Below are positions 23,296 to 33,393 of a stretch of DNA of 64,000 nt, piece by piece. Below the pieces are notes generated by a model that did no database searches, had not been told where the DNA came from, and worked only from the letters and a program-made list of their open reading frames with translations. The position numbers and the translations under genes were made by a program. The DNA is from Gottschalkiaceae bacterium SANA. Lineage in GTDB: Bacteria > Bacillota > Clostridia > Tissierellales > GPF-1. Location: contig AP028876.1 in assembly GCA_036323355.1 (NCBI GenBank), forward strand, positions 2,170,001 through 2,234,000, read 5' to 3'. Position 1 is the stretch's first letter. Each line of letters starts with the position of its first letter.

Positions 23296-23520
23296 TTATT
23301 TTTCTTCTACTTTACAAGATTCCACACCCGAAGTATTCGTTATCTGAAATTGTCCCAGGTCAGTATCTGCAGATTCAAAGTGATATTGACTGGCAACGCC
23401 TTGCTGCAGCAGCTCTTTGTTTTCTTCATAGTAGGGCATCCATATCTTCTTATTATTCTCAATGTCTGTTAGTATATGCACGGCATAACCCAATAGAAAA
23501 TCACGAAAGAGAAACAACAC
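23296..23520 (-). pseudogene. 3' fragment of a metal-dependent hydrolase-like gene
   Basis: 74 codons from a GTG that lacks a ribosome site and sits right after in-frame stops. The text FLLGYAVHILTD recalls the core His/Asp helix of zinc-dependent phospholipase C-like hydrolases of clostridia, whose full proteins are much longer. I read it as the remnant of a truncated gene at the downstream edge of the accessory operon. The family call is tentative. Confidence 0.4.
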
Positions 23521-23596
23521 TTTCCGATCCTATCAATTAGTGCTAGAACCTCGTTTCATCCCGCAAAAATTCTTCTTACGCTGATTAATGATTGTT

Positions 23597-24589
23597 TTAT
23601 TTCCCAAACATAATATGCTTAAAATTTTTTACCTTTGTATATAAATTTGGAAACGGCTTGAGAAGTTTTTTTATAGACTGCTCAAACCAAGACATTGACT
23701 GATTTAGCAGCTTCCTTGTCTTCATTGGTGCTTTCCGACTAATCTTATTGAAATAAAACTGCAACCAATTATTACCTTCCCTATAATCACAATAGAAGTC
23801 ATAATGCTCGAAAACAGAACAATCTGAATTCAAATACTTCTCACGTAACTTAACATGCATTTTATTCTCTTTTGAGTTGAATTTAGTGAACCAAGTAGAA
23901 GGTGGAATTAATTTGTACTTCTTATCATTCAAATCAATTAGTGAAATTTCATAAAATATATTCCAATCACTATAAGGATGATAATCCAAGTTTTCCATTG
24001 AATATTTAAGAATCAAAGTAAAATCAAATGAATTAACTCTTTCGTTTGTTTTTCGAAAAACCTTCATTGGATTATGAAAAATTTCAAGCCCACTCTTTTT
24101 TGATTTGTCCGACATATCAATTTTGAAGTCTATCATATATTCGTTTTTATACTCAATTTCTCGATACTCACCAATCGAACAACACATTCCTGAATAATAA
24201 CGATATTTATATTCAAAGCCCTTCAAATAAATATTTCTAGACGAAACATTATCAACAATAACCTTGAAAACTCTAACCTGATCATCACTTTGTTCATCCT
24301 CAACAATACTCACTGCTTTTATCTCAAATCCATATTCCCCCCTAATCAGCAACAATATATTAATGGACATAGATATCAAAAAAACTACTATTTTCACAGA
24401 ACTAATATTCTTGATTTCAAGTACATATTTTGAAGCATTAACATCAAACTCGAATAAACTCAATCCTATTAAAAAAATGATTGCAGTCAAAAATGTAACG
24501 GTAAGTTTCTTAATCCAATAAAACGCCTTAAATCTTTCCCAAAAGTCCACTTTAGTAAGTAACCCAAAAAACACTTTGAGTTTTTCCAT
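23597..24589 (-). CDS. Two-pass membrane protein with large cytosolic domain, unknown family
   Basis: 330 residues from the ATG at 24589 (TAGGAGGAATT upstream). Two hydrophobic helices (about 30-46 and 66-82) follow a short basic-aromatic N-terminus. About 245 residues then form a Tyr- and Phe-rich, probably beta-rich, domain (VRVFKVIVDNVSSRNIYLKG), with a basic tail. This recalls membrane-anchored accessory proteins in defence operons, but I recognise no family. It lies 65 bases after the Shedu-like gene, with a similar leader, and is the last complete gene of the run. It could be an effector, a membrane anchor or an unrelated passenger. Confidence 0.65.
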   Translation of the reverse strand: MEKLKVFFGLLTKVDFWERFKAFYWIKKLTVTFLTAIIFLIGLSLFEFDVNASKYVLEIKNISSVKIVVFLISMSINILLLIRGEYGFEIKAVSIVEDEQSDDQVRVFKVIVDNVSSRNIYLKGFEYKYRYYSGMCCSIGEYREIEYKNEYMIDFKIDMSDKSKKSGLEIFHNPMKVFRKTNERVNSFDFTLILKYSMENLDYHPYSDWNIFYEISLIDLNDKKYKLIPPSTWFTKFNSKENKMHVKLREKYLNSDCSVFEHYDFYCDYREGNNWLQFYFNKISRKAPMKTRKLLNQSMSWFEQSIKKLLKPFPNLYTKVKNFKHIMFGK

Positions 24590-24654
24590 AATTCCTCCTA
24601 TCACTTGAAATAGTCCAAGTTACAAAGAAGGCTGAAACAACTATTATGACTTCA

Positions 24655-25860
24655 TTACGCCTTTCTAAATCGTTCTATAATTGACTCCAGTCTCCTTATT
24701 AGATCATCATATGTAACGATATCGATAACACTCTTATATTTTCTCTTGATAATTTCCATATCAGTTCTTTGCTTATCAGTGAAGTTCTCATCCATACCTA
24801 AAACTATCAAGCCTTTCGGATTAACAATTTTAATCTTAAATCCATCTGGTAGATTCTTCGAATATGTAGCAGTGAGTTTTTTTTCTCCTGCAACACTCCA
24901 GCGATTCAAATAGTATATGTACTTTTCGAGTTGCATAACTGAGCCTGATAGCTGCTTTAATGGGATATGGTTATTTCGATATTGTTTTACTGATATTACT
25001 CCATAATCACTTGGTCTTTTTATTTCGATAATATCAATATGTCCATTGAAATCAATAAGCATAAAATCTAAATACTTTGTAGTACCTGTATCCACATCCT
25101 TTATTGTTACATTATCAAAGGCATACAAGTATTTTGGATATAAAAGAAGTACAATTTTCATAATCTGTTTCTGCCAATCCGCTTCAAGGTACTTACTTTC
25201 ATTACTAAGCATGTGTTTTAGATAGAATAAGATCTCTTCATATTTATGTAGCTCATACTTATTTAAATAATCTAGTTCGAAAGGATGATTCCTTGCCGAT
25301 ACCTTACGATTCATATAATCGTTATATTGTGCAATATAATCAGAAGATGCATCGACAAACTCCTCTAAAATATGTTCGATTCTCAACCGTGCATACTTTG
25401 TTAATTCAGTAGAGTTTGGAAAATTCTTAATTAATTGATTGAATACTTCACCTGGTATTTCATCCTTATTAGGACCAATAATTATATCACTTGCAATAAC
25501 TTCTGATATTTTACGAAATATAGAAATATCTCTATATGCAATGAAACACTTCGTATTAATTCTACAATTCTTATGTATTTTTACTCTTTGTGATATGCCT
25601 AGAATTTCGGGTTCAATAACATAATAGTCGTTCTCCATCTCACCAATGATAAATTCAAGTGAATCTAACTCACTAATTTGAGTGTAAACATCCTCGTCTT
25701 CATCCTCATCCTCTAAAATAATATTTTTCAATGTAAGGTGGAAACATCGTCTTAGAATTACTTCATCTTCTTCCTTCAGTCTATGTGCCACCCAAGCCAT
25801 CTGATTGTCAGAATAATAATCAAGTATTAATAGATCAGTTCCTTTACTTATTCTAATCAT
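24655..25860 (-). CDS. Shedu-like DUF4263 PD-(D/E)XK nuclease
   Basis: 401 residues from the ATG at 25860, which has TTGGAGGAGTT upstream. The N-terminal ~150 residues are a variable beta-rich region with an acidic run (DEDEDED). The C-terminal domain (about 190-330) has the DUF4263 layout: LEADWQKQI around 225-233, LLYPKYLYAF, then the nuclease core YLDFMLIDFNGHIDIIEIKR with Asp265, Glu279 and Lys281, and a Gln in VMQLEKYIYYL at about 310. Shedu (SduA) proteins are single-gene anti-phage nucleases whose N-terminal domain senses DNA ends. Here the gene starts 23 bases after a UvrD-like gene. Confidence 0.8.
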   Translation of the reverse strand: MIRISKGTDLLILDYYSDNQMAWVAHRLKEEDEVILRRCFHLTLKNIILEDEDEDEDVYTQISELDSLEFIIGEMENDYYVIEPEILGISQRVKIHKNCRINTKCFIAYRDISIFRKISEVIASDIIIGPNKDEIPGEVFNQLIKNFPNSTELTKYARLRIEHILEEFVDASSDYIAQYNDYMNRKVSARNHPFELDYLNKYELHKYEEILFYLKHMLSNESKYLEADWQKQIMKIVLLLYPKYLYAFDNVTIKDVDTGTTKYLDFMLIDFNGHIDIIEIKRPSDYGVISVKQYRNNHIPLKQLSGSVMQLEKYIYYLNRWSVAGEKKLTATYSKNLPDGFKIKIVNPKGLIVLGMDENFTDKQRTDMEIIKRKYKSVIDIVTYDDLIRRLESIIERFRKA

Positions 25861-25883
25861 AACTCCTCCAATCACACTCTGAA

Positions 25884-27419
25884 TTAAGCGATTACAACTC
25901 CTAACTTTGACAATTTTGATTTAGTATAATCACTGATTTCGCTTATACAACCGATGCATAGGAAATACTTTGCCCTGCTAAATGCTACATAACCTAGCCT
26001 ACAAACATCTTCTGCAACTATTCGCTTTTCGTTGTCAGTTTCTAACCATTTTAATAGCTCCTTTTCATTTTTAGAAAGTACTAAAACGGCATCCGCTTGC
26101 AAACCTTTTGCTTTATGAATGGTTAGATACGTCTCTTCACAACTTCCGAGACCATAAACTCTTTCAGTCGTTTGATATCCAGGGAACACCATCGCGTCCT
26201 TAATAAAGGTCTCCAATATACTCCTATATTTTGGCTTCGCATCTTTGTCCAATTTAAAATTATCCAAACTTATATTGAACTCAAACTCTATCCTTTTCAC
26301 AAGATCATCAGCCTTCAATCGTGGTTTGGCTTTTACGTCTTTAAATATTTCTAGACATTTTCGCCTTAACTCTAGATCTTTATAGCATAACGTGTCAGCT
26401 AACTCATACTTATGTCTGTTTAAAATTTGTGAGAGCATATCTAATACAAATTCTATAGCCGATGTATTCTTACCAAGTTTGCCTTTTGTATTCGAACAGT
26501 AACCGCTGTACATTTTGTTTTCATATGCAACGAACATTTTACTTTTAGGTTTTTTTGAACAGTATTTTTCATCAATACACAAATCGTTAAATTTGCTTAT
26601 TAACTGATCTTTCTCTATTTTATTTATAAAAAGAACAGCATTGTCAGTAGTGATTTTTTCATTCGCTTTTTTCTGTTGAATAAATGAATGAAATTGATTT
26701 ATGAAATCTACAATTTTCTGACTTGATCGGTAATTCATTTCTAATTTATCAATTTTATATGTGGTTTTCTTTTGAATCGAAATAATTGGAGCTTTAGATA
26801 TACCATTCTTATTCTTCTTTCTGTTCATAAAGCTCATAATACTTTGTTCCGGATCACCTACCAAAACCACATCAGTTCTTCCAGCAACCCTGAGTGTATC
26901 AAAAATATCAAATTGCGCCTTTATTGCATCTTGAAATTCATCTACAAAAACACTCTCAATTCTTTGTGAAAACCGCTCTTTGACTACTTTATTCTTCAAT
27001 AATTTTTTGGATAAAATTATTATGTAGTCATAATCTAAGACGCCTTTTTTAGATAGAGAATACTTCACTTGATTTTCCCGTATTTTTCTTTGAACTCTAT
27101 CCTTTGGCAAATTCATGATTTCATAATTTACAATTTTAGCTTCGGATTCGATCTCCTCTGTTGCTGTCGCATATGGCATTATTAAGTATTGCATTAAGAA
27201 ACTATGTATTGTGCCAATGAAAATATTATTTGAAATATCCATATGACGTTCTAGTCTGTCTCTAATTTCGTTTGTCGCTGCATTAGTATATGTAATAACT
27301 GCTAGTACTTTATAAGGCGATAAGGTTTTCGATTTTTTACGAACTTGTCGAATAATCTCAGTTGTTTTCCCAGAACCTGCTGCTGCAACAAGTAATGTCC
27401 CTTTGTTCCCTCTCCTCAT
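25884..27419 (-). CDS. UvrD/PcrA-like superfamily 1 helicase (GajB-like)
   Basis: 511 residues, much shorter than UvrD (~720) and close to GajB of Gabija (~490). Helicase motifs: I AAAGSGKT (12-19), Ia TYTNAATNEIRDRL, II FVDEFQD (158-164), III LVGDPEQS, IV MNYRSSQKIV, V TIHKAKGLQADAV, VI YVAFSRAK. The ATG overlaps the upstream stop region: the end of the OLD gene reads AAGGAGTAG, so its last codons are the ribosome site for this gene. Such coupling points to a protein complex. A role in anti-phage defence is inferred from the pair. Confidence 0.88.
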   Translation of the reverse strand: MRRGNKGTLLVAAAGSGKTTEIIRQVRKKSKTLSPYKVLAVITYTNAATNEIRDRLERHMDISNNIFIGTIHSFLMQYLIMPYATATEEIESEAKIVNYEIMNLPKDRVQRKIRENQVKYSLSKKGVLDYDYIIILSKKLLKNKVVKERFSQRIESVFVDEFQDAIKAQFDIFDTLRVAGRTDVVLVGDPEQSIMSFMNRKKNKNGISKAPIISIQKKTTYKIDKLEMNYRSSQKIVDFINQFHSFIQQKKANEKITTDNAVLFINKIEKDQLISKFNDLCIDEKYCSKKPKSKMFVAYENKMYSGYCSNTKGKLGKNTSAIEFVLDMLSQILNRHKYELADTLCYKDLELRRKCLEIFKDVKAKPRLKADDLVKRIEFEFNISLDNFKLDKDAKPKYRSILETFIKDAMVFPGYQTTERVYGLGSCEETYLTIHKAKGLQADAVLVLSKNEKELLKWLETDNEKRIVAEDVCRLGYVAFSRAKYFLCIGCISEISDYTKSKLSKLGVVIA

Positions 27420-27422
27420 AGA

Positions 27423-29297
27423 CTACTCCTTAACGAAATTGAATATACTCTTAATATATTCAGGAATCTTAATACTCTTCCCCTCATTCACTAACTGCTC
27501 TTCTAAATAAAATGCAAAGTCTGACTTATGCTCTTCAATGTCAGCAAAATAATCATCAATTATAATTTCTTTAGTCCATCCTTTTGTCTTTAATTTCGCT
27601 AAATTTGGTCGTACCAACTTATAAGTATCTAAAAGAACAGTTCTCTCTTTCTCAGTCTTATTTGCTTCTAATATTGCCTTTTCAAATGTATTATCGTTGA
27701 ATTCAACTTTAATCACCTTGCAGTCATCATATTCTTCTCTCAATTTCGGTGCTCTGTTCTCGGTTATTTTGCCAGCATCCTTATCAGTAATTACGCCACA
27801 CTTTATGAAATATCCGTTTTTAACAACCTCCAAGAAATGTTTGAAAGCAACCCCATTAACGTTGATTATACTAATCCCCATGCTTTCAAGAGTTTTTCCT
27901 GTGTGCATGTTGAACAGTGCTGGTACGAGAATCTGCTCCGATATCCCTTCAACAAGAATAATTCTTCTAGCATAGAACATGCACGAATTAGTCGCATCCA
28001 GGTATTTCTTCAAGTACATTAAATGTTTCAGGTCTTTCACCTTTTCGCCAAATCCAGTGGTAATATAATGATACTCCAGAGCAGAATTATCCCTATACAG
28101 TATTACGATATCCTCAATATTAACAGAAGTTGCTATATGTGTAGAATGTGAAGTCATAAGCAACTGCGTTTTAACTTCACTCTCGCCATCATCATCTTGT
28201 ATTTTTCCAATTTCCTTTATTGAATTCGACAAATGTTTTTGCAAGTGAGGGTGCAAATGTGCTTCTGGCTCTTCAATTCCAATAACTCTAAAAATCAATT
28301 CATTCTTATCGTCCATCTTCGAAGTCAGATGCGACAAAACAATTGATATATATAATAAATTATTCTTCCCTAATCCATTTCTCTCTATAGAAATAGGATC
28401 ACGCCCATAAACCAAACTCAACTTCTTTAGTACCTCATTCACTTCTGGTGCTGAAAAACTGAAATTAATCACATCATCAGATTCTGGTCCTGATAGTAAA
28501 ACCTTTTTCAAATATTCGGTTATGTCATTACTAATTTTCATTAATTTATCATTTTCCTGGATATTTGAATTAAGTGTTTCTAGTGTGCTTTTAATATCCG
28601 AGAAATCATTTTCGTAATTTTGCGTCAATATCCTGTATAACAACTTATAATCACTATTTGCGACTAGTTGCTTTTTGGCATCGCGTAGCGCATCAAGGAC
28701 TTCGTATTTGAGCATTCTTAAGTAATATTGGTCACATTTGTTACTTTCATTATCTCCACCAAAAATTATGTATTCGTACTGTTCAATTGGAAAATCAACA
28801 TAATCATGTGGCTTATATTCTCCATCTTTGAATTTTTCTTTTAATTTCTCTAATGATCCAATTTGTTCATTAATCCATTTAGCTTTATCAAATCTTGATC
28901 TAGGTCTAAACAAATATGTGATTTTCACTTTTGTTAAAGACTTTTCAAAAAACCAATCACCAACCGCAGCCAGTTGCTCTTCACTCATATTCTCCAATAC
29001 TATTTCAACCTTCACCTCAGGAAAGGCAACGCCACTGAAATCTTCTATTCCTTTTGTCAAAGCACTAATATTCTTTTTGAAATCAAGCTTTGTTTTAAAG
29101 TTAATATCTTCAATATCAAGTGTACGCTTTTTAAACATCGTTATATCTTGACTTATAACCAATCCAATTGCCTCAATCAGATTTGATTTCCCTATATTAT
29201 TTTCTCCAATAATTAAAGTTGCTGGTCTTAAAGGTATTTCAAACTCTTTAGCACCAAAATTCCTATAATTCTTGATTGTTAATTTTGAAATATGCAT
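27423..29297 (-). CDS. OLD-family ATPase-Toprim nuclease (GajA-like)
   Basis: 624 residues; GajA is about 580. The N-terminal ABC/SMC-type ATPase has KNYRNFGAKEFEI and Walker A GENNIGKS (31-38), a coiled-coil middle, an ABC-signature-like segment near 305-312, Walker B VIGIEEPEAHLHP (338-350) and H-loop MTSHSTH (381-387). The C-terminal Toprim domain has ILVEGISEQILVPAL with Glu450 and ITDKDAG with Asp505 and Asp507. Class 2 OLD proteins occur beside UvrD-like helicases, as here. In Gabija the pair senses NTP loss and nicks phage DNA. The call is OLD with certainty and Gabija-like by context. Confidence 0.9.
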   Translation of the reverse strand: MHISKLTIKNYRNFGAKEFEIPLRPATLIIGENNIGKSNLIEAIGLVISQDITMFKKRTLDIEDINFKTKLDFKKNISALTKGIEDFSGVAFPEVKVEIVLENMSEEQLAAVGDWFFEKSLTKVKITYLFRPRSRFDKAKWINEQIGSLEKLKEKFKDGEYKPHDYVDFPIEQYEYIIFGGDNESNKCDQYYLRMLKYEVLDALRDAKKQLVANSDYKLLYRILTQNYENDFSDIKSTLETLNSNIQENDKLMKISNDITEYLKKVLLSGPESDDVINFSFSAPEVNEVLKKLSLVYGRDPISIERNGLGKNNLLYISIVLSHLTSKMDDKNELIFRVIGIEEPEAHLHPHLQKHLSNSIKEIGKIQDDDGESEVKTQLLMTSHSTHIATSVNIEDIVILYRDNSALEYHYITTGFGEKVKDLKHLMYLKKYLDATNSCMFYARRIILVEGISEQILVPALFNMHTGKTLESMGISIINVNGVAFKHFLEVVKNGYFIKCGVITDKDAGKITENRAPKLREEYDDCKVIKVEFNDNTFEKAILEANKTEKERTVLLDTYKLVRPNLAKLKTKGWTKEIIIDDYFADIEEHKSDFAFYLEEQLVNEGKSIKIPEYIKSIFNFVKE

Positions 29298-29353
29298 TAT
29301 TTCGCCTACCCCTCAATTGTCGTTGTTCACTTAAACACTAGATAAATCATGTT

Positions 29354-30100
29354 TCATATTTTTAAAACATCTCCATCAAATACAATTTCTTCAATATACT
29401 CCTTGAATACATCTAGCAACCGATCTGCCGATTGTGGTGTGTATGATGGAGATTGAGAAATAAATACATAATCCGGCTTCGTTTCAAGGCGAAACTCCTT
29501 CTCAGTTAATTCATTCAATTTCACAGCCGTTTCAACTACTTTTGGTTTAATTTTGAATAAGCTCGGATAATCAAGAACTGATTGTTTCTCATACCCCTTT
29601 AATTCGATATACCCCGAAAAATCATTGAAGTCTTTCATGTATATTTGCATATAATCCATTTCCCAATTAGGATGCTGAACAAAACTTATTTCCTTAATCC
29701 ATCTATTAGCAATAGCATATGTAAGGTAATTTCCCTCGTTTAATTTTGACGGGTAGGCTCGATCTCTAACTTCTCTATGCAATAAATCAAATACTACCTC
29801 AGTCCATGAAGAACTTCCCAACCCAAAATCGGAATGTGCATCGACGTGTATCACATCAAACGGAATTTTAAGATCTGCTTTTTGAACAAGTTCTCTCCAT
29901 GCTAAATAACAACCATGATGTTTTTTTACCATACAACCTTTAGCACGACTATTTTTAGATAATTTACACTTCGATTCAAGAAAATCGCAAAATCTGTCTA
30001 TGTCCCAAGAATAAATTTTCCCTTCTGACACTCTGAAATCAGCAGCATTATCAACTATACCTGATACGAAAAAGTCAAGGTCTAGATCAAGTACTATCAT
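29354..30100 (-). CDS. UPF0489-like protein (arginase/deacetylase-fold signature)
   Basis: 248 residues. The N-terminus opens with DLDLDFF (5-11). FDVIHVDAHSDFG follows, with metal-ligand-like His85, Asp87, His89 and Asp91, and SPSYTPQSADRLLD lies near the C-terminus. These are the hallmarks of UPF0489, a poorly studied family with an arginase/ureohydrolase-like fold. If metal-bound it should be a hydrolase of unknown substrate. It is the gene upstream of the OLD nuclease with a 56-base gap, and has a strong TTGGAGGAATAA site. Its inclusion in a defence-like operon is notable. Confidence 0.7.
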   Translation of the reverse strand: MIVLDLDLDFFVSGIVDNAADFRVSEGKIYSWDIDRFCDFLESKCKLSKNSRAKGCMVKKHHGCYLAWRELVQKADLKIPFDVIHVDAHSDFGLGSSSWTEVVFDLLHREVRDRAYPSKLNEGNYLTYAIANRWIKEISFVQHPNWEMDYMQIYMKDFNDFSGYIELKGYEKQSVLDYPSLFKIKPKVVETAVKLNELTEKEFRLETKPDYVFISQSPSYTPQSADRLLDVFKEYIEEIVFDGDVLKI

Positions 30101-30159
30101 TTATTCCTCCAATTAGTTTGATTTCACTTAATTCTTCCAACTATTCTGATAAACCGAAT

Positions 30160-30188
30160 TTATTACGTTTAGTTATTTTCTCAGTCAA
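30160..30188 (-). promoter_or_regulatory. Candidate promoter of the UPF0489-OLD-helicase-Shedu run
   Basis: Minus-strand TTGACT (30188-30183), 17-nt spacer, TAATAA (30165-30160), within the 118-base gap. The -10 is weak, and read-through from upstream is equally possible. Confidence 0.3.
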
Positions 30189-30218
30189 TCCTAACCAATC
30201 TTCTCTAATTGTTTAAAA

Positions 30219-31613
30219 TTAATTATAGCTGCTTGCTGCAGCTTTAGATTTTGAATCAATGATAACAAGCATAGGTACATTATCATCAATTTCTGAACGT
30301 TTTTCGTGCTCAGCAATAATTTTCTTCAGCCGTCCAGAGTTTCCAATATCTACAAACACGAACATTTTTTGTTTCGTTCCTTCTGCAGCCGCATACTGTT
30401 CAAGCTGCACGGTATATCCATGTAAATACCGCCCACTTGAAGACAATTTTATTTCACCAACAGTAATATCACCGCCTCGACTTACCTTGAAATCCGCTGG
30501 GCCTCTTCCGGCATCGGGTTCAAAACTTATATCCAAATTGTTTGATCGAATATAATGCTTTGCACTGAGGTGTAATAAACGCTGGACAACTCTTTCTCGT
30601 TTAGACGATTCTGTCTCAAGAATCGTCTCCCAGCCCTTATTATTTTCAATCCAATCTTTGAAAATAATAAGCACATCCTCTGCTGCTTGAATAGAAGTTT
30701 TAGTCTCTATTTCTTCGACATAAAATGAGATGCCAGTCTTTTTCATTTGCTTAAACAGCATTTCAACAAAATAATCCAAATCATTGCTTAACTTCACAGG
30801 TGGTGCTGTCAGATTGCGATATGCTTCAATAACACGAGTGCACCTCTCTGGGTCTTTAAACACCTGTTCTTTTAAATAGTTTTTCTTCTGACCCGAAGCC
30901 CATTTATGCCACTCTTCGCCAACTGCCGCATTAACTTCTCGACGTATACTCTCGTTTTCACTAATCACTCGACCAATATCTTCCCAACATTTTGCAATCG
31001 GTAATTCTTGAAGTATATCAACTGGCAAAAGTAATATTTCACAATCTTTGTAAGGATTAATAACTATCTCATCTCTAAATTGGAGCTCTGGATATGAGTT
31101 GGGGTCAATATTCAATTCTTGGTTAATTCGTTTAGTAAATTGAACTATGTCTGGAAGAATGATAGTCGCCACCATATCACTTAGTCTATCGGGACCAATA
31201 TTCTCTTCAAACAACCCAATAAGTTGAAATATTTCCGGTTGCTTTGAACCCTTTTTGATAATATCAAACGCATCATTCATAACCTGATTCCTAAGTTTTT
31301 TTCCAAATCCTGATCCATACTTTGATTCTGAGTACCCAAGATTTATACCATTTACTTCCGAAAAATCAAAAAGTCTGAATGCAGCTTTATAAAACTTATC
31401 ACCCTTTTTATCTGAAGTTTCCAATAGAGTTGCAATACTACTAAAAAGGTTATTTATAGACGCATATGAATTTTTGAATTCAGGAACTTGTGTTTCTTTT
31501 AACCTCATTAAATTAATAAAAAAGTTACTGTCCGTATCAATAATTGAATCAAAAACGCCTTTGTCTACAAATTCATCCTCTACACTCAAATATTCAGATG
31601 CAAAAATAGCCAT
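30219..31613 (-). CDS. Uncharacterised protein with C-terminal PD-(D/E)XK-like motif
   Basis: 464 residues from the ATG at 31613 (GAGGAGAGATG upstream). The N-terminal ~330 residues are helical and match no family I know. The last ~110 contain ISFEPDAGRGPADFKVS, then VGEIKLSSSGR, with Asp374, Glu387 and Lys389 in the D-(x)n-E-x-K order of restriction-like nucleases, and an LEQYAAAEG helix. The GRGPADF...GEIK pattern resembles DNA-targeting endonuclease cores in restriction and Shedu proteins. It lies between the shared-motif pair and the OLD operon and may be the nuclease partner of either. Confidence 0.6.
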   Translation of the reverse strand: MAIFASEYLSVEDEFVDKGVFDSIIDTDSNFFINLMRLKETQVPEFKNSYASINNLFSSIATLLETSDKKGDKFYKAAFRLFDFSEVNGINLGYSESKYGSGFGKKLRNQVMNDAFDIIKKGSKQPEIFQLIGLFEENIGPDRLSDMVATIILPDIVQFTKRINQELNIDPNSYPELQFRDEIVINPYKDCEILLLPVDILQELPIAKCWEDIGRVISENESIRREVNAAVGEEWHKWASGQKKNYLKEQVFKDPERCTRVIEAYRNLTAPPVKLSNDLDYFVEMLFKQMKKTGISFYVEEIETKTSIQAAEDVLIIFKDWIENNKGWETILETESSKRERVVQRLLHLSAKHYIRSNNLDISFEPDAGRGPADFKVSRGGDITVGEIKLSSSGRYLHGYTVQLEQYAAAEGTKQKMFVFVDIGNSGRLKKIIAEHEKRSEIDDNVPMLVIIDSKSKAAASSYN

Positions 31614-31627
31614 ATTTTCATCTCTCC

Positions 31628-31729
31628 TCAGACAAGTAAATTCGTGAAATTTCTGTATCTCTCCCACATTTGTTCTAATCCAGTATCAATAATTATGGTA
31701 TTCTTTGCTGCATTAAAGATTTCCACCAT
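31628..31729 (-). CDS. Possible 33-residue small protein coupled to its neighbours
   Basis: The ATG at 31729 is 5 bases after the stop of the upstream gene, with TGAGG before it. The frame ends in TGA at 31628, and that stop is part of the TGAGGAG ribosome site of the next gene. The product, opening MVEIFNAAKNTIIIDTGLEQ, is mixed charged and hydrophobic. The layout fits a short coupled gene, but length alone cannot exclude chance. Confidence 0.35.
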   Translation of the reverse strand: MVEIFNAAKNTIIIDTGLEQMWERYRNFTNLLV

Positions 31730-31733
31730 TGCC

Positions 31734-32843
31734 TCAATCTAAGTCAGGAAGAGTTTCATCATTTCTTTTTGCATTAGCATGCGCTAAAACTTTTCCGACC
31801 GCCGTTATCGTAAATGAACTTGGAATCTTGTTCCACCATTCTCTTACGATATTCAAGTAAGGGCGTTTTACCAACTCATCACAAAATCTTTTCTTAATGT
31901 CAGCCTTTAATGTTCCATTATTCTCATACATTTTATAAATCCGATGCAATTGCTGCTTTTGATTATCTGAAAGCTCAGCTTTTATTGGTATCTTTTTTCC
32001 CTCTAAGTTACAAAAATGAGTCCACGCAAGGCTATCAATGCTTTTTTCACTTGCAACTTCGAGCCTCACATATTCTTCATTCAACTCATGATTGCAAAGA
32101 ATATTCTCTGGCAATGCAACCTCTTTAATCATTTCAATAACTTTCGTATAATCATCCGAATTTTTTTTGATTCCAACTGCACAAAAACCAGACAACTTCT
32201 CACTATAGAAATCTTCATACTTTTTTATAGAAACAAATGTAGATGGCCGAACGGCATCCAATATGTCTAAGTGGTCAAGCCACTCTCTATTTTCCGGCAA
32301 CCTGTCATAGCATATTTTCTTGAATAATCCATCAAGAACATCGAGCCCGTCCGTAATACTTCCAGTAATAGGTTGATAAAATTGTACAGCAAATGCTACA
32401 GTCAATCCTAATAAAGCGTCATCCGAGATCTCGTCCACTATTTCAACTGCCTTACGAATTCCTACACGAGTTTTTCTATTATCCCCCTTCTGTATTCTTC
32501 TTAATAAGAGCTCCGACAATAATGAATAATCTGCCTCCCTATCAGTTGTAGCAGCGGTCTTATGCGCACTTGTTAATAGAAATTGAAAATCAGGATCAGC
32601 AAATGCATTCATTGCGCCATGAACTTTTCCCATTTTTGGAATCAGATCATTTTCAAAGTTCGTTACCCTTTGTGTTGCTAGGCTAAAGGCCTCATTAGTC
32701 AAATCTTTCTTAGCAACAGCGAACATCTCCATGAATATTTCTCGCGCCCGTTTTTCTTCTATACCATTATGGATGATGATGGATTGCGCTTGAATCTGTT
32801 GCGAGTTTTCACCAGCTTTTTGGACTTGCTTTTCACTTGCCAT
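31734..32843 (-). CDS. Soluble protein with N-terminal KQVQ motif, possibly the LPO_1073/Vpar_1526 family
   Basis: 369 residues from the ATG at 32843, preceded by GGGAGGGTTG (a tandem ATG lies one codon earlier). The first 20 residues contain KQVQKAGENSQQIQ (5-18), a motif found twice in the small membrane protein just upstream. The rest is helical, with EEKRAREIFMEMFAVAKKDL, HKTAATTDREADYSLLSELL and EIVDEISDDALLGLTV. From memory it resembles proteins named LPO_1073/Vpar_1526, of unknown function; this needs checking. No nuclease, ATPase or TIR motif is visible. It overlaps the membrane protein gene by 11 bases, so the two are translated together. Confidence 0.65.
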   Translation of the reverse strand: MASEKQVQKAGENSQQIQAQSIIIHNGIEEKRAREIFMEMFAVAKKDLTNEAFSLATQRVTNFENDLIPKMGKVHGAMNAFADPDFQFLLTSAHKTAATTDREADYSLLSELLLRRIQKGDNRKTRVGIRKAVEIVDEISDDALLGLTVAFAVQFYQPITGSITDGLDVLDGLFKKICYDRLPENREWLDHLDILDAVRPSTFVSIKKYEDFYSEKLSGFCAVGIKKNSDDYTKVIEMIKEVALPENILCNHELNEEYVRLEVASEKSIDSLAWTHFCNLEGKKIPIKAELSDNQKQQLHRIYKMYENNGTLKADIKKRFCDELVKRPYLNIVREWWNKIPSSFTITAVGKVLAHANAKRNDETLPDLD

Positions 32844-33108
32844 CATCAACCCTCCCAACTTGCACTTGAGAAGCATGCTCCCCAGCTTTTTGAACTTGCT
32901 TAATACTCGAACTAATTCTTCCTGAGTCAACAACAGCTTTTCCACTTCCAATCTCTATAGTTTGGCTCTGATTAGCATATTTCTCAGCATTTTGTACTTG
33001 TTTCGAACGACTTTTAATACCTATTCTATATCCCATCGTTCCTCCAACTATTGCGCCTATAAAAAGAGTCATTATTGCAGTTCCAATACCGTCAAAAATC
33101 CATTCCAT
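32833..33108 (-). CDS. Small one-pass membrane protein with two KQVQ motifs
   Basis: 91 residues. One glycine-rich transmembrane helix (about 8-30, ending GYRIGIKSRSK) precedes a soluble tail with two motif copies: KQVQNAEKYANQSQ (36-49) followed by TIEIGSG, and KQVQKAGEHASQVQ (70-83) followed by VGRVDDG. The copies are 34 residues apart. The IEIG and VQVG tetrads resemble the core of RHIM-like amyloid signalling motifs. The next gene carries the same motif at its N-terminus and overlaps this gene. I infer that the two proteins bind through the motif. The function is unknown; membrane effector or anchor are both possible. Confidence 0.7.
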   Translation of the reverse strand: MEWIFDGIGTAIMTLFIGAIVGGTMGYRIGIKSRSKQVQNAEKYANQSQTIEIGSGKAVVDSGRISSSIKQVQKAGEHASQVQVGRVDDGK

Positions 33109-33149
33109 AATCCTCTACGTCCTCCTATTTATAGTATCTCGCTATGTCG

Positions 33150-33393
33150 TTAACTATCGGCAATAACACTAGCCAACACTTCTATAGATATTCGAAGATT
33201 TCGATGCATCATCCTATGGCAATTCGCACATAGCAACACTATCTCTTCAACTCTTGTTTTATCCTCTTCTTTTAACTCAGAAATAGGAATCCTATGATGC
33301 CCTTCAATGATATATAACACTATCCCGCGCACGTCCCGAACACGAATCGTATTCACTCCACCGCGAGTTTGGCTTTAATGATGAAATATTCAA
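33150..33393 (-). pseudogene. Frameshifted or truncated HNH endonuclease remnant
   Basis: The 3' part (33150-33356) encodes IIEGHHRIPISELK and, after a spacer, VLLCANCHRMMHR, a clear HNH zinc-finger nuclease end. It lacks the upstream domain. A separate frame starts at a TTG (33393) with a perfect GTAGGAGG site and encodes NISSLKPNSRWSEYDSC before stopping at 33304. The two pieces overlap in different frames, so one frameshift in a short or already truncated HNH gene is likely. It lies 41 bases upstream of the membrane protein gene. Confidence 0.5.

Follow-up and report, generated by a model that had tools for sequence, protein, structure and literature searches.

Gene content of the locus

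The window analysed is a stretch of 64,000 nucleotides of contig AP028876.1 of Gottschalkiaceae bacterium SANA, and its features are collected in Table 1. The region from about 23.5 to 33.2 kb had no match in two genomes of the same genus, both of which also lack the nuclease gene studied here, and its G+C content is 0.30-0.37 against 0.40-0.43 outside. This strain-specific island carries family matches to SduA (Shedu), GajB and GajA, in agreement with the defence-like neighbourhood described in the original prediction. The three genes (24655-29297) follow one another in the same orientation, separated by 3 and 8 bases, which suggests a single transcription unit for Gabija and Shedu. The arginase-like gene sits inside this defence island, between GajA and the nuclease gene. 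On the other side, a small predicted membrane protein precedes and overlaps the LPO_1073-family gene, the two together spanning 31734-33108. Both the arginase-like and the LPO_1073-family genes are on the same strand as the nuclease gene, at distances of 118 and 120 bases. In the same-genus genome G775 (L090:3217-11053), an apparent V/A-type ATPase cluster separates an RlmCD-like gene from the gene that adjoins it in the window; a tyrosine recombinase lies on the other side.

Table 1. Coordinates of the island, of the two-domain gene with its parts, and of the alternative nuclease fusions.
Feature	Position	Strand	Basis
Strain-specific island	23506..33179	.	No match in two same-genus genomes; low G+C
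SduA	24655-25875		Family match
GajB	25884-27419		Family match
GajA	27423-29297		Family match
Arginase-like gene	29354-30100		Peptide arginase model E 1.8e-6; UPF0489 E 0.004
DUF8370/phrog_30194-type two-domain CDS, 464 aa	30219..31613	-	Open frame; phrog_30194 E 7.9e-77
Predicted PD-(D/E)XK nuclease domain, residues 336-464	30222..30608	-	AF2, Foldseek, alignment
Conserved C-terminal tail, K457-x-(S/A)459-A/G-S461 (family consensus KxSASK)	30231..30245	-	Alignments
Q403-x3-Y407, RecB/Cas4-type QxxxY	30393..30407	-	Invariant 21/21
E387-x-K389, motif III (ExK)	30447..30455	-	Invariant 21/21
D374 codon, motif II aspartate (GxGPxDF)	30492..30494	-	Invariant 21/21
E365 codon, acid right behind first strand	30519..30521	-	Invariant 21/21
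E340 codon, candidate motif I glutamate, first helix	30594..30596	-	Invariant 21/21
Helical connector, residues 206-335; E323 invariant	30609..30998	-	AF2, alignment
N-terminal domain, residues 1-205, common to PADLOC PDC-M36A	30999..31613	-	Alignments, AF2
Shine-Dalgarno-like AGGAG, 10 bases ahead of ATG	31624..31628	-	Sequence reading
LPO_1073/Vpar_1526-family gene	31734-32951		NF045477, E 5.1e-28
N-domain + Mrr-like ECK nuclease	L136:7121-8572, L138:6036-7484		

The two-domain gene is real. Its frame is open on the minus strand, the plus strand of the same interval being full of stops, and the coordinates and length of 464 residues given in the original prediction stand with the strand corrected to minus. 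An alternative GTG at 31667, 54 bases upstream, would add 18 residues and give a protein of 482 amino acids; the ATG at 31613 is favoured because the starts of the relatives agree with it and because of the AGGAG in front of it.

Searches of Pfam and NCBIfam with the window protein gave no family match, and PDB sequence searches with the whole protein, the N-profile and the C-profile gave no credible one; a CFA/I sequence matched by the N-profile was discarded as a 36-position overlap with no stretch passing alone. In contrast to the earlier description of its N-terminus as unlike known families, the protein is already catalogued: phrog_30194 matches it over residues 3-461 of 464, hence along its full length, and matches all 21 members of our family alignment, and the E. 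coli relatives carry the recent annotation 'DUF8370 family protein'. The membership of the window protein in DUF8370 rests on homology to proteins annotated in this way. It is therefore not newly seen and belongs to an existing uncharacterised family; the description stood in one respect, the family having no recorded function. Among the papers searched, none mentions DUF8370 or PDC-M36, nor any of the six protein accessions looked for.

The predicted nuclease domain

The nuclease call was originally drawn from the pattern D374-x12-E387-x-K389, which is indeed present in the protein. D-x12-[DE]-x-K occurs three times in this sequence and at least once in 33% of its shuffles (P about 0.33), and a nuclease claim based on the motif in a single sequence was rejected as not above chance. 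The family alignment comprises 21 members, of which the 20 others are 21-33% identical to the window protein, and D374, E387 and K389 are identical in all of them; it is this conservation, unlike the single-sequence pattern, that makes the motif convincing. Invariant columns number 23 out of 464, with 14 of them within residues 323-461. E340, E365, Q403 and Y407 are equally invariant, so that the predicted catalytic set is larger than the three residues proposed at first. We take Q403-x3-Y407 to be like motif IV of the RecB/Cas4-type nucleases.

The AlphaFold2 (AF2) model of the whole chain (mean pLDDT 79 and mostly near 90 over residues 381-450; pTM 0.71) has C-terminal helices at 336-358, 396-411 and 426-442 and strands at 361-364, 375-379, 382-390, 415-422 and 448-453, an alpha-beta-beta-beta-alpha-beta order as in the PD-(D/E)XK core. 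D374 opens the second strand and E387 and K389 lie inside the third, which places the three residues on adjacent strands. When the whole chain was compared with the PDB by Foldseek, the leading matches were mostly restriction or PD-(D/E)XK enzymes, none below E 1e-3: Nt.BspD6I, PspGI (prob 0.95), BstEII, Can2, Hjc (prob 0.75), HincII, R.BspD6I2 and EndoMS. Sequence profiles gave a weak Cas4_II match (E 0.0014) on residues 305-459 of the relative L010 and weak PDDEXK_9 matches (E 3.9e-4 and 7.8e-4) in the family scan; none of the members scanned matched a Pfam PD-(D/E)XK model strongly. Since the invariant residues of all 21 members and the predicted order of secondary structure agree, the call of a predicted PD-(D/E)XK nuclease domain in the last ~130 residues holds and is well supported by alignment and model.

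The N-terminal domain and its other arrangements

The long helical region expected ahead of the nuclease core is seen in the AF2 model, with connector residues 206-242 poorly modelled, and the separate N-terminal domain is upheld: residues 1-205 form a discrete domain that is also found elsewhere, alone or fused. Modelled alone, residues 1-214 reach a pLDDT of 86.9 and a pTM of 0.85, and Foldseek found no credible fold match for this model in the PDB (best E 0.85). The invariant residues are D28, F32, E86, G93, G100, G140, D142, D146 and P197, S145 being nearly so. The sequence at residues 33-37 (31503-31517) is FIN(L/I) in the window subfamily and the relatives nearest to it, and FIDP in nearly all other members.

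Searching with the N-domain revealed several arrangements, for which the counts are ORFs or loci among those fetched. The fusion of the N-domain with a nuclease of the window type was found in 44 ORFs, some of them near-identical. In L136 and L138 the N-domain is followed by a different nuclease-like C-terminus with HEGRKRID...ECKNY. This C-terminus is unlike the DUF8370 nuclease and resembles an Mrr-like protein encoded in L099, with pairwise E values of 1e-3 and 1e-4; L139 holds a shortened copy. In five loci (L092, L093, L094, L134 and L135) an AbiLi-type AAA ATPase is followed within 650 bases, on the same strand, by a stand-alone N-domain, and in four of them a gene of 101-147 amino acids lies between the two (L134:6533-9413, L135:6671-9589, L094:8224-11161, L092:8395-11240); L093 has no called middle gene. 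ATPase, small protein and N-domain thus form an apparent three-gene candidate defence operon. Stand-alone N-domains without such an ATPase are found in L095, L137, L140, L141 and L142, so that the ATPase is nearby in 5 of 10 intact stand-alone loci as against none of the 44 fused ones. The nuclease domain for its part occurs with other N-termini in L031, L032 and L096; that those of L031 and L032 are diverged N-domains received no support from sequence comparison.

Because it is joined to different effectors, the N-domain is most easily read as a regulator or, as reasonably proposed at first, a sensor, a role that its occurrence alone, beside an AbiLi-type ATPase and on another nuclease would fit. 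Its last place in the AbiLi-type operons means that it may itself be an effector, and the acidic invariants D28, E86, D142 and D146 could mark a second active site and not a sensor. We tentatively propose that the N-domain represents a hitherto undescribed control module that can pass between defence systems, with a fold absent from the PDB, and that it was coupled in separate events to two unrelated PD-(D/E)XK nucleases and also to an AbiLi-type ATPase operon. If so, one recognition (or enzymatic) principle would be common to several different defence systems.

Distribution and genomic context of the relatives

A relative in a Clostridia MAG (51%) is split into two frames (L002:5072-6474), either as a broken gene or through an assembly error. 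The gene is found in a few percent of genomes or fewer: 7 of 391 sampled genomes of the class, the source genome included, and 13 of 5426 complete E. coli genomes (matches to at least 80% of one relative). Plasmid relatives come from Rhodobacter, Nitrosospira, Legionella, Sinorhizobium, Rhizobium, Roseomonas, Paenarthrobacter and Janthinobacterium, with partial matches in others; relatives are present at 23 loci on IMG/VR contigs, and the phage record collection searched yielded none.

The defence setting of the gene and its relatives is strong. The E. coli relatives, alone or with few other genes, occupy the stretch from int to psu in P4 satellites, a position known as an anti-phage hotspot (PMC9122126). 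Two E. coli strains, MB06172 and KMi029, have the relative directly behind the ssrA-located integrase, on the satellite's psu side, and in KMi029 it is the only gene at that position. Neighbours of other relatives match models of Dsr1, KwaA/KwaB, AbiEi, type IIG RM, RmrA and NsnA. In L008 (L008:3839-6468) an RmrA-like XRE/ImmA gene ends 9 bases before the relative, which resembles a RosmerTA pair with the nuclease in the toxin place; such a pairing with an upstream RmrA antitoxin was rejected as a general rule, L008 being its only case. Among the fetched loci the full-length form has no recurring partner gene, nor does any neighbour of the window gene recur beside the relatives.

Proposed function and alternative explanations

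Taken together, these data make it probable that the gene encodes a single-polypeptide anti-phage (or anti-mobile-element) nuclease in which an N-terminal domain controls a PD-(D/E)XK effector. The effector would be a metal-dependent phosphodiesterase acting through D374, E387, K389, E340/E365 and the QxxxY motif, most likely on DNA. The independently inherited N-terminal ~205 residues would hold the nuclease inactive, and would release or direct it upon a phage-linked trigger, which may be (i) a DNA structure or end, (ii) a modification or (iii) a phage protein.

The protein might instead be a restriction-type enzyme (type IV-like or orphan type II), whose N-domain reads a DNA sequence or modification and whose C-domain cuts there, with no conformational trigger. 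The nearest fold matches are restriction and nicking endonucleases, the relatives L005, L007 and L009 lie near methyltransferase/helicase systems, and the stand-alone N-domain of L140 adjoins a gene that reads as Dam-like from its sequence. However, the family has no conserved methyltransferase neighbour, an adjacent one being absent from most loci (the window and the P4 satellites among them), and in the Foldseek comparison the N-domain resembles no DNA-recognition fold of the PDB; we consider this explanation unlikely. Somewhat less likely again is a two-effector abortive-infection factor with a toxin-like enzyme as N-domain. The five stand-alone genes that come last in AbiLi-type operons hold the effector place of AbiL/PARIS-type systems (PARIS gene layout from PMC9122126), and the domain bears invariant acidic residues, but it matched no known enzyme fold, its fusion to two different nucleases speaks rather for a role in regulation or targeting, and the window subfamily lacks the otherwise near-invariant D34-P35 (FIDP to FINL).

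A dependence on a partner in trans, such as the arginase-like or the LPO_1073-family gene, appears improbable. Their common strand and short distances would agree with it, as would the placing of the N-domain by PADLOC under the candidate system PDC-M36, where "M" denotes multi-gene; yet neither neighbour adjoins any fetched relative, for which reason both were rejected as operon partners, and the gene is the lone cargo of the P4 satellite of KMi029, the closely preceded relative in L008 being the exception. We consider it very improbable that the protein is no defence factor at all and serves DNA repair or the maintenance of mobile elements: its motif set is RecB/Cas4-like and it is often carried by plasmids and satellites, whereas its rarity, its strain-specific occurrence and its repeated location in defence hotspots argue against such a role.

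With a control domain and a nuclease in one chain as the preferred explanation, an unnamed DUF becomes a testable single-gene defence nuclease candidate with named catalytic residues, and its N-domain points to a front module common to three kinds of defence loci. In E. coli the gene stands alone in the P4 hotspot, so that it can be cloned and the question of sensing by the N-domain can be addressed directly in laboratory strains.

Comparison with known systems

The N-domain is homologous to that of PDC-M36A, from the PADLOC candidate multi-gene system, in all members tested (E 2.4e-8 for the window protein, 1.1e-34 for the best). The match is confined to profile positions ~8-261 of 457, the window protein matching only 47-170 and all members stopping by about 261, and the nuclease domain is not shared; full-length membership was rejected on this ground. 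Two N-domain proteins of about that length, in L136 and L138, have the different, Mrr-like ECK nuclease at their end. The likeness to the AbiL/AbiLi and PARIS-type systems is limited to the stand-alone N-domain loci, the fused form having no such ATPase nearby. With the RecB/Cas4-like nucleases the family has the order E...D...ExK...QxxxY in common and only a weak similarity, and no four-cysteine cluster of the Cas4 kind is conserved among the 21 aligned members.

Shedu (SduA, PF14082) is similar in design, a one-protein defence nuclease in which a variable N-terminal part precedes a C-terminal PD-(D/E)XK domain, and the D...EIK hairpin of the window family aligns in register with that of SduA. 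The N-terminal clamp of Shedu senses DNA ends (review PMC12904381), whereas the N-domain of the window protein is unrelated. Membership in Shedu was rejected: the window protein had no match to PF14082 (SduA_C), the best family member reached E 0.1, and the hhalign profile comparison covered 25 columns only, with a probability of 5%. A one-protein design with an N-terminal control domain and a PD-(D/E)XK effector is already known from Shedu. What our analysis adds is the assignment of a predicted nuclease and a probable defence function to the DUF8370/phrog_30194 family, whose N-domain it identifies as a mobile module without solved counterpart.
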